DNA of 64,000 nt from Natrinema sp. CBA1119 (GTDB taxonomy: Archaea; Halobacteriota; Halobacteria; Halobacteriales; Natrialbaceae). Below are positions 36,977-41,359 of this stretch, piece after piece (the first letter of the stretch is position 1; each line of letters opens with the position of its first letter). The position numbers were made by a program, and so were the translations under genes. The stretch spans positions 434,001 to 498,000 of the forward strand of contig NZ_PDBS01000001.1 in NCBI RefSeq assembly GCF_002572525.1, given 5' to 3'. The notes under the pieces are model-generated. The model had not been told where the DNA came from. It saw nothing but the letters and a program-made list of their open reading frames with translations, and did not search any database.

Positions 36977-38662
36977 TCAGTCCTCGGTCGTCTTGATATC
37001 GGCCGACAGCCCCTGTGCCATCTCGATCTCCCTGGAGTTGTTCATCGTCCACGCCGTCCGCTCGGTGACGGCTTCGATGGCCTCGCGGGCGCTCGGATAC
37101 CCGTTTCCGGACTTTTTGACGCCGCCGAAGGGAAGCTGGACCTCCGCGCCGATACACGGCAGATTCGCGTACGCGAGCCCGATTTCGGCGCGGTCTCGGA
37201 AGTAGTTGAGTTGGCGGTAGTCCTCCGAGATGATCGCGCCTGCCAGTCCGTAGGGGGTGTCGTTATGGATCTCGACCGCGTCCTCGATCGTTCCCGAGTA
37301 CTCGAGCAGGGCGACGTGCGGGCCGAAACACTCCTCGTTCAGACAGCGCAGGTCGGACTCGTAGTCGATCTCGTAGACGAACGGCCCGACCCAGTAGCCG
37401 TTCGCGTAGCTGCCGCTACGCTCACCATCGGCGTCCTCAGAAGCACGTTGTGCTTCTGATGTGCCCACAGAATCGCGTTGCGATTCTGGGACGGCAGTAG
37501 CCGCCCCCTCCTCGTGGCCGTCCGGAATCTCGCCGTCCTCGAGTTCGAACCGATCGACCAGCACCTCAGCTCCCTCCTCGCGGGCGAGGTCGTTGTGCCG
37601 GCGGATCTTCTCGACGTGATCGGCCTCGATCGCCGGGCCCATGAACGTCGACTCCTCGAGCGGATCGCCGACCGCGATGTCCTCGGCGATGTCGACGAAT
37701 CGGGCCTTGAACTCGTCGTAGACGTCCTCGTGAACGATCAGGCGCTCGCTCGAGACGCAGCGCTGGCCCGTGGTCTTGAAACTCGACATGATCGCGGCGT
37801 GGACGGCGATATCGAGGTCGGCTTCCTCGGTGATGACGATCCCGTTCTTGCCGCCCATCTCGCAGGCCGCGAGTTTGCCGGGTTCGCCGCCGACCTTGCC
37901 AGCGATCTCGTGGCCGACCTCGGCGGACCCGGTGAAGAGGACGGTGTCGACGCGCTCGTCGTCCGCGATCGCCGCGCCGGCGTCGCCAAAGCCCTGAACC
38001 ATGTTGAAGACGCCGTCAGGGATCCCGCTCTCCTCGAACATCTCGGCGATGATCTGGCCACACCACGGGGTCTGCTCGGCGGGCTTCCAGACGACGGTGT
38101 TACCCTCGACCAGGGCGATGGCCATGTGCCAGAACGGAATCGCGACCGGGAAGTTCCACGGCGTGATGCAGCCGACGACACCTCGTGGCTTCCGGCGCAT
38201 GTAGGCGTCCTTGCTGCCGATCTCGCTCGGGACGACGTCCCCGTGCGGGTGGCGTGCGTTGCCAGCCGCCCACTCGACCATGTGCCAGGCCTCGGTCACG
38301 TCGGCTTTTCCCTCCGAAATCTCCTTGCCACACTCCTTCGAGACGATTTTCCCTAACTCATCGTGGCGGTTCCGCAGTTCGTGGTAGATGTCCCAGAGGT
38401 ACTCCGCGCGATCGATGTAGGACAGGGAGCGCCACTCCTCGGCGGCCGATTCGGCGGCCGCGAGGGCGGCATCGACGTCGGCCACCGTCCCGCGCTGGAA
38501 GGTCGCCAGCGGCTCCCCGGTCGCGGGGTTCTCGCTCTCGAACGCCCGTCCGGCGTCGGGCTGCGTCCGATCGCCGGCGGGACCGCGTTCCGCGCCGTTC
38601 CCGTCGGTCCACTCGCCACCGATGTAGTGGCCGCGTCCCCGTTCGGTGCGTTGCTGGCTCAT
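36977..38662 (-). CDS. Aldehyde dehydrogenase with palindrome-encoded loop insertion
   Basis: A 561-residue NAD(P)-dependent aldehyde dehydrogenase. Visible are T-P-W-N-F-P-V-A, the general base in C-E-M-G-G-K-N-G, the catalytic Cys in G-Q-R-C-V-S-S-E, and P-F-G-G-V-K-K-S-G at the end. It is longer than the usual 480-500 residues because of an acidic N-terminal extension and an insertion at about residues 390-415 reading E-S-Q-R-D-S-V-G-T-S-E-A-Q-R-A-S-E-D. The DNA of that insertion forms two perfect hairpins. The substrate is unclear; K-P-A-E-Q-T-P and V-K-K-S-G recall the aliphatic or semialdehyde groups. I start at the ATG at 38662; an ATG at 38683 is the alternative. Confidence 0.85.
   Translation of the reverse strand: MSQQRTERGRGHYIGGEWTDGNGAERGPAGDRTQPDAGRAFESENPATGEPLATFQRGTVADVDAALAAAESAAEEWRSLSYIDRAEYLWDIYHELRNRHDELGKIVSKECGKEISEGKADVTEAWHMVEWAAGNARHPHGDVVPSEIGSKDAYMRRKPRGVVGCITPWNFPVAIPFWHMAIALVEGNTVVWKPAEQTPWCGQIIAEMFEESGIPDGVFNMVQGFGDAGAAIADDERVDTVLFTGSAEVGHEIAGKVGGEPGKLAACEMGGKNGIVITEEADLDIAVHAAIMSSFKTTGQRCVSSERLIVHEDVYDEFKARFVDIAEDIAVGDPLEESTFMGPAIEADHVEKIRRHNDLAREEGAEVLVDRFELEDGEIPDGHEEGAATAVPESQRDSVGTSEAQRASEDADGERSGSYANGYWVGPFVYEIDYESDLRCLNEECFGPHVALLEYSGTIEDAVEIHNDTPYGLAGAIISEDYRQLNYFRDRAEIGLAYANLPCIGAEVQLPFGGVKKSGNGYPSAREAIEAVTERTAWTMNNSREIEMAQGLSADIKTTED
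37438..37488. repeat. Two in-frame palindromes inside the aldehyde dehydrogenase gene
   Basis: CAGAAGCAC-GTT-GTGCTTCTG (37438-37458) and CAGAATCGC-GTT-GCGATTCTG (37468-37488) are perfect 9-base hairpins with identical loops, 9 bases apart. The outer bases CAGAA/TTCTG and the loop region are the same in both. The inner part of each arm differs, but its partner differs to match, so pairing is kept. On the coding strand they encode E-S-Q-R-D-S and E-A-Q-R-A-S. Confidence 0.85.
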
Positions 38663-38972
38663 ACGAGATGAAACGGCGGGCACGGTGAAAATCCTGCTGG
38701 TGGTTCACATCACACGAACGGACTGCAGGGTTGGATACTCGAAACCCCACCGTTCGTTCGCTCGAGGTCGCTCGTGAGAAACGCGCGAACACGGACGATT
38801 CCTCGGGATTCGAGCGCGTCGTGGATCGACCGATAGCTGACTCGGAGAGCCGACCGAGCAACGAACAGTCCCGAACTGGCCAACAACGCAGAAATTCCAG
38901 CCGGCGAATTTCCCGACAGTTGCAGGCACGCACGTTTTGCTCGAATGGCCGCTACCTCAGTGTGAGTAACAA

Positions 38973-39407
38973 ATGAGTGACACACCGAACACCGAAACCG
39001 GCCGCGATACCCGAACCGACTACAATTCCCTGAACACGGACGCGATGCAGTGGCTGAGCGCCCTCGTCGCGCTGCTCGGGCTCTACCTCGTCGCCTCGCC
39101 GTTCCTCTTCGAGGCCACGGACGCGGCGATCTGGAACGATACGCTCGTCGGAACGGCGATCTTCCTCGCCGCGGGCTACAACTTCGTCCGCCTCTCGAGG
39201 GACCGATTGGCGAGCGTCGGCGTCGCATCGCTCGCGGTCCTGCTCGGGCTGTGGGCGCTCATCTCGCCCTCGTTCATCGAGATGGGGAGCAGTACGCTCG
39301 CGACCGGCACCGCGATCACCGGTCTGCTCGTCGCCGCCCTCTCGGCCTACAACGCCTACGCCAACAACAAGGCCGACACGCCGGAACAAACGCGAGCCCG
39401 CGCCTGA
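38973..39407 (+). CDS. SPW-repeat membrane protein
   Basis: A 144-residue protein with four membrane helices in two similar halves. Each half carries the SPW-type phrase: L-Y-L-V-A-S-P-F-L-F then W-N-D in the first, and L-W-A-L-I-S-P-S-F-I-E in the second, followed by small-residue-rich helices. SPW repeats are known in bacterial and archaeal membrane proteins of unknown function. The tails are acidic. Confidence 0.78.
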   Translation: MSDTPNTETGRDTRTDYNSLNTDAMQWLSALVALLGLYLVASPFLFEATDAAIWNDTLVGTAIFLAAGYNFVRLSRDRLASVGVASLAVLLGLWALISPSFIEMGSSTLATGTAITGLLVAALSAYNAYANNKADTPEQTRARA

Positions 39408-39890
39408 ATCGACCGGCCCGTTTTTCGATCGGTAAACCGCTCGAGCAGTGATAGCCGACAACTCTCGCTTTTCGAGCCAGCCGAATGCAAGAAGGAGAGA
39501 GGCTCGAGAGTACTTAGATCGATCAACCGGCGTGCGGTGGCGCGCGCTGGGCCGCGGTGAATGCGAATGAACCGCGACGCAACGTCGTGCGAGGTCTTCG
39601 TGAACGGAGTGAACGAAGGCTTGGAAGACGCTTCGCGTCTTCATGTGGATGAGCGAACGCTAGTGAGCGTTAGCGCGGAACCGGAGGTTCCGCGAACCAT
39701 GCGAATAGTGCGAGACCGGAGGTCTCGCATACCATGCGAACGGCGGCGGAGCCGCCGTGAGCAGACGGGCGCGCAGCGCCCGTGAGCAGAATTCGGTTGG
39801 GGAGGGCGTGGCGATTCCCTGGTGCCACGATAGCAGGACGGTTGTCTCACGAGATTCCATCAAAACGTACCGACCCGTCTACACGCCCGA
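39408..39890. other. Non-coding region with hairpin cluster
   Basis: These 483 bases separate the convergent SPW and PRC-barrel genes. The first part (to about 39570) shows nothing clear beyond a T-run after the SPW stop (39420-39425) that may help terminate transcription. The middle is the hairpin cluster described separately. No frame here has protein-like composition, and both genes point into it. Confidence 0.6.
39575..39783. repeat. Cluster of short perfect hairpins with fixed 3-base loops
   Basis: Five perfect hairpins with 8-9 base arms and 3-base loops stand in a row: GAAGACGC-TTC (39624-39642), CGCGGAACC-GGA (39674-39694), TGCGAGACC-GGA (39709-39729), ACGGCGGC-GGA (39740-39758) and ACGGGCGC-GCA (39765-39783), each followed by its exact complement. 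Three weaker ones accompany them: CGACG-CAA-CGTCG (39575-39587), CTTCGT...ACGAAG (39596-39618) and AACGCT-AGTG-AGCGTT (39656-39671). Arm sequences differ while the pairing is perfect. Short linkers such as CCATGCGAA and TGAGCAGA recur between them. Confidence 0.85.
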
Positions 39891-40412
39891 TTATCGATCC
39901 TCGTCCTCGCCGCGGTCTTTCGTAACCGTCCGGTCCCCCTCCGGCGGGGCCTCCTCGGTATCCGGATGCCGCTCCGCGCCGGACTCCGTCATCCCCTCGG
40001 TCGACGGCTCGAGGCCCTGCCCGGTCCGCCCCTCCTCGCTCGATGCCGGCTCGTCGGGCGCACCCGGCTGCGGACCCAGCGTCCGCTGCTCGTCGCTATC
40101 GCCGCGCGCGTCGGTACTCTCGTCGCGCTCGATGACGGGATCGGTGCCCTCCTCGGCCGGTTCCGCCGGCAACGAGCGCTCGTCCTCGAGCCGAATCGCG
40201 GTCTCGGTGATCTCGCTAACGGCGCTCTCGTCCATCGGGACGATTTCCTCGTCGGTCTCCCACTCGAGGATCGCCCGGATCGTCCCCGTCGCCCCCTCAT
40301 TCGCGTCGACGTAGGCCGTTTCGGCCTCGGTCATCCGAACGGTTCCCAGCGGGTCGCCGCCGGCGGTTTCGACACGCTTGCCGACATCGTCGTCGGTGAA
40401 CGTCGCGCACAT
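39891..40412 (-). CDS. PRC-barrel-like protein with long acidic tail
   Basis: A 173-residue protein. The first 75 residues resemble a PRC-barrel: F-T-D-D-D-V-G-K-R-V-E-T-A-G-G-D-P-L-G-T-V, A-Y-V-D and I-V-P-M-D-E-S-A-V-S-E-I. The remaining 100 residues are an acidic, Pro/Glu/Ser/Thr-rich disordered tail. PRC-barrels occur in photosynthetic reaction centres and RNA-processing proteins; in haloarchaea most are unassigned. The ATG at 40412 is chosen, since the upstream extension lacks the domain. Confidence 0.72.
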   Translation of the reverse strand: MCATFTDDDVGKRVETAGGDPLGTVRMTEAETAYVDANEGATGTIRAILEWETDEEIVPMDESAVSEITETAIRLEDERSLPAEPAEEGTDPVIERDESTDARGDSDEQRTLGPQPGAPDEPASSEEGRTGQGLEPSTEGMTESGAERHPDTEEAPPEGDRTVTKDRGEDEDR

Positions 40413-40549
40413 ACGTCGGCGTAGCGCCAGATCGCGAAAACTCGTGGTGCCTGCACTGGCCGGTCCGTCGGCGATGGGAGTCCAGTCCTCGGCGAGCAAG
40501 GGACAATCGTCGTCGATCGTCGACGGTCTCGAAACGGACCCAACGCGGG

Positions 40550-41359
40550 TCACTGCTCGCCGAGATCGGCCGCCTTCTCGAGTTCGCTGCGGAGCGTCGT
40601 CGAGTCGAACTCGTGGTCGGGGCGGAGGCGGACGAAATCGAGGAACTCCCGCGCCGAGAGCAGTTTCGTGGGGTCGTACACCGTCGCGGCCGCGTCGACG
40701 GCGTCTCGGGAACCGATTCGGGGCTCGAGGACGGCCAGCGCACAGGCCAGATCGTACGCGGTCGTCTCGTCTGCGCGGTCCTCGTGGACGCTGGTCGCGT
40801 CGATGAAGTAGAACTCGCCGTCACAGAGCAGAATGTTTTCGGCCCGCAGATCACCGTGGGCGAGCCCGTGCTCGTGGAGAGTGGCGAGCATCGCGAACAG
40901 TTCGGGGGCTCGCTCGGCGACGATGTCGTCTGAGACGTCGTCGAGGGACTCGAACTCGGGGAGATACTCGAGGACGAGTACGCCGAGCCCGTTGACCTCG
41001 AAGGCGTCGATCGGCCGGGGCGCGTTGACGCCGATCTCCTGCATGCGCTCGGTCGCGTCGTACTCGTGTTCGACCATCTCTCGAGGAGTGTCGAACCGGT
41101 CGAAAAACCCCTCCGTCCCGGAGGAGAACGCGCCGACGTTCCGACCGGTCGTCAACACCGCGTGAACCAGGGCGTTCTGCCGGGAGACGATCTTGACGAA
41201 CCACTCGTCGTCGATAACGCACGGGGTTGAGAGCCAGTTGTCGGCCTCGAGGAACTCCACGCGGACGCACTCGCGGTCGTAGCGGTCCGCCAGCGTCCGG
41301 ACGACGCGCTCGATGCGGCTCCACTCGACGGTCCCTCGCGCGAGCCGGCGGATGTCCAT
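40550..41359 (-). CDS. RIO-like serine/threonine protein kinase
   Basis: A 269-residue kinase-fold protein. The catalytic loop is H-G-D-L-R-A-E-N-I-L, followed by Y-F-I-D-A-T-S-V where a DFG-like metal-binding Asp sits. A Lys in W-F-V-K-I-V-S is the likely ATP-binding residue. The small size and loop sequence match archaeal RIO/Bud32-like kinases more than bacterial Hanks kinases. Targets are unknown. It has no membrane helix. Confidence 0.75.
   Translation of the reverse strand: MDIRRLARGTVEWSRIERVVRTLADRYDRECVRVEFLEADNWLSTPCVIDDEWFVKIVSRQNALVHAVLTTGRNVGAFSSGTEGFFDRFDTPREMVEHEYDATERMQEIGVNAPRPIDAFEVNGLGVLVLEYLPEFESLDDVSDDIVAERAPELFAMLATLHEHGLAHGDLRAENILLCDGEFYFIDATSVHEDRADETTAYDLACALAVLEPRIGSRDAVDAAATVYDPTKLLSAREFLDFVRLRPDHEFDSTTLRSELEKAADLGEQ

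Follow-up and report, generated by a model that had tools for sequence, protein, structure and literature searches.

A dispersed repeat of haloarchaea with a covarying core and variable perfect hairpins

The cluster of perfect hairpins at positions 39624-39783 of the window (the whole stretch of 64,000 nt of Natrinema sp. CBA1119 DNA that was analysed here) makes up the variable portion of a single copy of a dispersed repeat family, and the conserved core of this family lies on both sides of the hairpins. Within the literature and Rfam searched, no previous description of the dispersed repeat was found. Searched against Rfam, neither the window nor short copies gave a match for the element above the gathering threshold; ordinary tRNAs and one sub-threshold match were all that was returned, and the literature searches by sequence and by topic, with most subscription journals outside their scope, gave no description. 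The hairpins belong to one family, which these searches did not link to a known repeat and whose sequence is not fixed.

Hairpin cluster and its surroundings

The cluster contains five perfect hairpins with arms of 8-9 bases and loops of 3 bases. With perfect arms of at least 8 bases and a 3-base loop as the criterion, 0.005 such hairpins were expected on average under a first-order Markov model of the same 209 bases, and the maximum in any of 2000 trials was 1. The five hairpins announced in the preliminary description therefore exist, and their number is far above chance. In the surrounding 400 kb, 69 such hairpins were counted, 8 of them within the approximately 2.2-2.4 kb covered by element copies. 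The recurring linkers reported earlier proved to be direct repeats of 35 nt and 25 nt at 80%, and the site does lie between predicted convergent genes, with a gene on the + strand ending at 39407 and a gene on the - strand at 39891-40553.

A 74-aa ORF (39561-39785) crosses the element, and ORFs of this kind that overlap copies probably represent spurious gene calls. A pair of perfect hairpins with GTT loops, TCAGAAGCACGTTGTGCTTCTGA and CAGAATCGCGTTGCGATTCTG, sits in tandem at 37437-37488 inside the long - strand ORF 36977-38683, which is aldehyde-dehydrogenase-like by eye and in which these hairpins encode SQRDSVGTSEAQRASED. This pair is possibly an in-frame palindromic insertion. The 400-kb stretch holds two further GTT-loop hairpins.

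Anatomy of the copy in the window

The boundaries of the copy were derived from own-genome blastn matches (69 with 39500-39850 as query), oriented copies and the flank consensus. Accordingly, the copy is composed of core, inserts and tail and extends from approximately 39516 to 39868; it and all of its parts described below are given for the + strand. The leader has diverged in this copy, and in better-preserved copies a conserved leader begins approximately 60 nt upstream of GTGGC. The 5′ strand of P1 (GTGGCG, 39537-39542) pairs with TGCCAC at 39823-39828 and represents consensus helix 1, which is mostly invariant and paired in 97% of cells. P2 (39543-39591, covarying helices 2-4) is formed by CGCGC at 39543-39547 and GTGCG at 39587-39591 and encloses the variable stem P2b, in which tandem G.A and a GNNA-type loop are found.

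The two inserts were delimited by orthologue alignment. Insert 1 (39595-39647, 53 nt) starts with a weaker hairpin, which is followed by the perfect hairpin GAAGACGC-TTC-GCGTCTTC (class H_E, 39624-39642); its best own-genome match is 47/54. Between the inserts lies the core P3 region GATGAGCGAACGCTAGTGAGCG (39648-39669, consensus helix 5), composed of GAU, tandem G.A, GC and again tandem G.A, and identical in 22/22 positions to the related genome G008. Insert 2 (39670-39789, approximately 120 nt) carries four perfect hairpins with the linkers GCGAA and TGAGCAG, namely CGCGGAACC-GGA-GGTTCCGCG (class H_A, 39674-39694), TGCGAGACC-GGA-GGTCTCGCA (class H_B, 39709-39729), ACGGCGGC-GGA-GCCGCCGT (class H_C, 39740-39758) and ACGGGCGC-GCA-GCGCCCGT (class H_D, 39765-39783). 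The 3′ core AATTCGGTTGGGGAGGGCGTGGCGATTCCCTGGTGCCACGATAGCAGGAC (39790-39839) comprises nearly invariant alignment columns and has one T more than the consensus AATCGG. The tail (39840-39868) reaches at best 25/33 to other own-genome copies versus 12-13/33 to orthologues and is likely part of a conversion tract.

Copies, consensus and distribution of the family

A covariance model gave 104 matches in the own genome, which correspond to about 90 copies. Every one of them lies on the 4.09-Mb contig of the 5.06-Mb assembly, and these copy counts rest on model and pattern searches. The strict 16-base core pattern GARTCGGYTGGGGAGG occurs 70 times in the genome and its reversed control 0 times. From the aligned copies, the leader consensus was read as ...GTTCAGTA..ACGTMTCACTCC..CAACCGGCGT and the core consensus as GCGGTGGCGCGCGCTG - variable stem - GYGCGAGGGATGAGYGA - variable stem - GARYGAATCGGYTGGGGAGGGYGTGG...TGTTGCCACGATAGCAGGAC, and according to the flank consensus the tail ends near CCATTCAC. 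Copies measure roughly 150-450 nt, the short ones approximately 150 nt. In the long copy of the window, insert 1 follows GCGAGG and insert 2 follows the second variable stem.

A model of 147 positions matched 124 of the 292 genomes and 42 of the 77 genera of the class, among them Natrinema, Natronococcus, Haloterrigena, Natronorubrum, Halosimplex, Halococcus and Halorussus. The number of copies per genome ranges from one to dozens across the class, and the core is recognisable across several families. The few bacterial matches to a short scan pattern are probably due to chance. A viral origin was rejected, as exact core matches numbered 0 in viral contigs and none was found among phages. A single founder locus was discarded as well, since low-copy genomes share one site within a genus and not between genera. 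Strict absence from plasmids was also dropped, because six haloarchaeal plasmid records contain a match. In CP031304.1, a 987-kb replicon of Natrinema thermotolerans filed as a plasmid, the core is found at six places, while the own genome has none outside the main contig. In other genera, the 3′ flank of four loci (L346, L348, L354 and L363) contains the motif GGACTGAAAGGGGCCG, present in 0-6 exact copies per genome tested; this motif may represent another type of tail or a repeat of its own.

Fold of the core

The conserved core of approximately 150 nt has a covarying, strand-specific fold. With the proposed structure, 95.2% of cells are paired in an alignment of 35 copies drawn from many species, versus 24-50% for slid versions of it; 123 cells are changed on both sides versus 40.5±5.5 after shuffling, and changes on both sides are seen in 16 pairs. 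In the alignment, tandem G.A steps are seen to recur within the stems (GAU-GA-GY-GA...GA-RC-GA-AUC), together with loops of the GNNA type. The core helices comprise 151 G.T versus 18 A.C, and in the variable core helices, with a near-fixed U.G excluded, 37 G.T versus 6 A.C were counted. Since G.T is far commoner than A.C, selection appears to see the + strand as a single strand, so that the + strand of the core probably acts as a single-stranded nucleic acid, with RNA more likely than ssDNA.

Variation of the insert hairpins

Insert hairpins from the own genome, G008, G021, G004, G005 and other genomes were grouped into classes by linker patterns. The 70 distinct hairpins obtained, mainly from five related genomes and with related copies counted as cells that are not independent, include 58 perfect ones and comprise 500 Watson-Crick pairs, 6 G.T, 5 A.C and 3 others. 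G.T is rarer here than in the variable core helices (p=7e-6 with the near-fixed wobble excluded, which is the figure used; p=6e-11 with the near-fixed U.G pair included; p=3e-5 for the own genome only). Variants of the arms include GCGGGACC, GCGGAACC, GCGAAACC and GTGGGACC as well as CGGCGGC, CGGGCC, CGGGTGC and CGGACGC. Changes in one arm are nearly always matched in the partner arm, and with shuffled right arms just 13-40% of hairpins are perfect. The arms in the cluster had been considered unrelated and not copied from one palindrome, which agrees with this variation through matched changes.

Among 59 distinct triloops, 19 are GNA and 18 its reverse complement TNC, mostly closed by C-G. GNA triloops form very stable DNA mini-hairpins, and GCGAAGC mini-hairpins are found in the literature. 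Identical arms with a loop and with its reverse complement were found in 11 pairs versus 4.6 expected, a number reached in 0/2000 simulations. Paired arm changes and loop inversions, the predicted footprints of template switching, are both present in excess as overall counts across hairpins. The strand symmetry together with the lack of wobble intermediates argues for making and repair of the arms at the DNA level, and points to a strand-symmetric DNA process, e.g. template switching or hairpin inversion, as the force that shaped them. Template switching could be mimicked if a palindrome-reading DNA-binding protein imposed strong selection for perfect palindromes. For the origin of the cluster, the earlier proposal of a template-switching-like process thus fits the insert hairpins with their almost complete lack of wobbles and mismatches and their inverted loops. 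The other proposal, separate elements inserted side by side, had to be given up, as the hairpins are modules at two fixed positions within one repeat copy, exchanged between copies.

Locus history and exchange of modules

Gain and loss at the locus, for which the preliminary description recommended a comparison of sibling strains, were read here from sister species, with one genome sampled per species. The orthologous site holds a bare core without insert 1 and insert 2 in G008, and other inserts, including a different insert 2, in G021. The flanks are orthologous, and the 5′ part of the window copy agrees with the G008 orthologue in 73/79 positions. Insert 2, in contrast, matches in 118/122 positions another own-genome copy located at 1.71 Mb (L005), which suggests an exchange of modules between copies, with gene conversion as the probable route. 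For the resulting mosaic of an orthologous 5′ part, an insert 2 close to an own-genome copy and a tail of own-genome type, a gene-conversion tract is the best reading. Over a syntenic stretch of 400 kb, some sites occur in two or three species, and many sites are empty in one or two. Orthologous sites therefore occur in occupied and unoccupied form, and at one orthologous locus the modules are present, absent or different. No clear target duplication was seen at the unoccupied sites, which have diverged.

Genomic placement and pairing of copies

None of the 88 copies with gene context overlaps a gene according to our own gene calls. In total, 37 of them lie between convergent genes, 21 in tandem pairs in sense, 17 in tandem pairs in antisense and 13 between divergent genes; the background of 157 gaps of at least 150 nt comprises 27 convergent, 80 tandem (both kinds) and 50 divergent ones. 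Avoidance of promoters explains this enrichment between convergent and depletion between divergent genes.

Close copies are arranged almost only tail-to-tail. This orientation was found in 10/10 pairs within 1.5 kb and was not favoured beyond 5 kb; over all loci it was found in 26/27 close pairs, some of which are orthologous. Paired copies account for about 20 of 91, leaving approximately 71 singles. Examples of tail-to-tail close copies are L156, L164, L173, L181 and L205 in the own genome and L051, L058, L076 and L223 in other species, and the spacers mostly measure 75-166 nt. A composite transposon was considered and rejected, because the genes enclosed by distant tail-to-tail copies proved to be unrelated host genes. 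No transposase or other gene family recurs beside the copies.

Interpretation

The best explanation, which we regard as fairly probable, is that the family is a non-autonomous, intergenic and mostly chromosomal mobile repeat of haloarchaea, akin to REP and bcr1 elements but novel in its architecture. It would spread through a candidate enzyme acting in trans, and its core would be kept either by the needs of mobility or by an RNA role. Template switching between arms, or else hairpin inversion, may produce the hairpin arms and maintain their perfect pairing, while ectopic gene conversion would move the modules between copies. Copies would persist where they do the least harm, away from divergent promoters, with selection against promoter damage as the putative filter. 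Against this explanation stand the lack of a recurring partner gene beside the copies, the location of the Y1 transposases elsewhere in the genome, the missing clear target duplication and the tail-to-tail bias, for which it does not account.

The leading rival is a non-coding RNA, structured and functional, that stands alone or lies in 3′ UTRs, that was amplified to many loci and whose inserts are ordinary peripheral helices under selection for the RNA fold. The covarying one-strand fold, the invariant single-stranded motifs, the recognition of the core in several families and the low-copy loci at the same site within a genus are all in agreement with it, as is the window fold with z=-6.0 on the + strand; however, the fold of the - strand is nearly as unusual (z=-5.5). 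Moreover, tandem gene pairs have no clear sense bias (21 sense versus 17 antisense), different genera have no locus in common and the terminator signal is absent, and selection on an RNA fails to explain the near-absence of wobbles and the strand-symmetric loops in the inserts. We therefore consider this explanation rather unlikely, yet the most serious competitor of the mobile repeat.

An ssDNA hairpin element like REP/REPIN, moved by a transposase of the IS200/IS605 type (Y1) with the tail-to-tail doublet as the mobile unit, appears improbable. GNA or TNC hairpin loops, strand symmetry and the excess of inverted doublets would suit such an element, and the own genome has five Y1_Tnp matches. 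Three of these are located on the contig C1 at 2.92-2.97 Mb, with the nearest copies at 2.84 and 3.11 Mb, so that no Y1 gene is near any copy. In addition, singles far exceed doublets, the opposite of REPINs, a GTAG or CGTC foot was not seen, and the length of 150-450 nt with a conserved core is foreign to REPs. Termination depends in archaea on U-rich sequence, and the suggested role as a transcription terminator or RNA-decay element, which the enrichment between convergent genes would favour, is highly improbable given that 51/88 copies lie elsewhere, that tandem pairs have no sense bias and that, instead of a hairpin followed by a T run in sense to the upstream gene as in intrinsic terminators, T5 was found in 2/87 tails and T4 in 14/87.

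As an extension of the mobile repeat, we tentatively put forward a class-wide mobile RNA element, in which the core would be a functional folded RNA and the outer arms would grow, invert and swap by DNA template switching and gene conversion; this is conceivable, and clearly less probable than the mobile repeat as such. If the mechanism is true, a single genome shows dozens of hairpins caught in the course of being formed and perfected, which addresses the question of how perfect pairing of RNA stems is kept while both arms change. One family in culturable archaea would provide dozens of hairpins with perfect stems, paired changes of the arms and inversions of the loop, together with an internal control in the same element, the core helices, which evolve with ordinary one-strand wobbles. 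Furthermore, an undescribed dispersed repeat, perhaps a new structured RNA, would be added to a whole archaeal class, which bears on the annotation of its intergenic regions.

Comparison with known systems

The omega RNAs associated with IscB/HEARO-type proteins and TnpB are dispersed structured RNA-like elements, often without a protein gene. The present element is likewise structured, RNA-like and dispersed, but it has no Rfam match and no recurrent nuclease gene beside its copies. With regard to MITE features, no terminal inverted repeat was seen in the flank consensus, and unoccupied sites are too diverged for a clean reading of target duplications.

The bcr repeats of the Bacillus cereus group are short dispersed repeats of 100-400 bp with up to about 130 copies, mostly chromosomal and with features of mobile elements (PMC6542083 and references therein). 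The present element resembles them in being high-copy, mainly intergenic and chromosomal, and gained or lost between related genomes. It differs from bcr1, which has a TTTAT motif and is restricted to the B. cereus group, by its occurrence in Halobacteria, by a flank consensus without TTTAT and by the lack of clear target repeats. Hairpin-insert modules and tail-to-tail pairs are not known to be features of bcr1, from which the element is thereby set apart by description.

REP, BIME and REPIN elements go with RAYT transposases (PMC3116915, PMC3733652), and REPINs are inverted doublets (PMC3116915). Like these, the present element is palindromic and intergenic, occurs in inverted doublets and would form hairpins in ssDNA or RNA. 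Unlike REP/REPIN with their palindrome of 20-40 bp, it is mostly single and has a large conserved core; its consensus, read by eye, has no GTAG or CGTC foot, and no Y1 transposase is its neighbour.

Footprints of template switching have been predicted in RNA hairpins, where perfect stems carry multiple compensatory changes and inverted loops, and combined cases of paired change and loop inversion are extremely rare in rRNA (PMC8794818). In the archaeal family described here, in contrast, which is a single multicopy one, dozens of hairpins repeatedly show paired changes of the arms and inversion of the loop.
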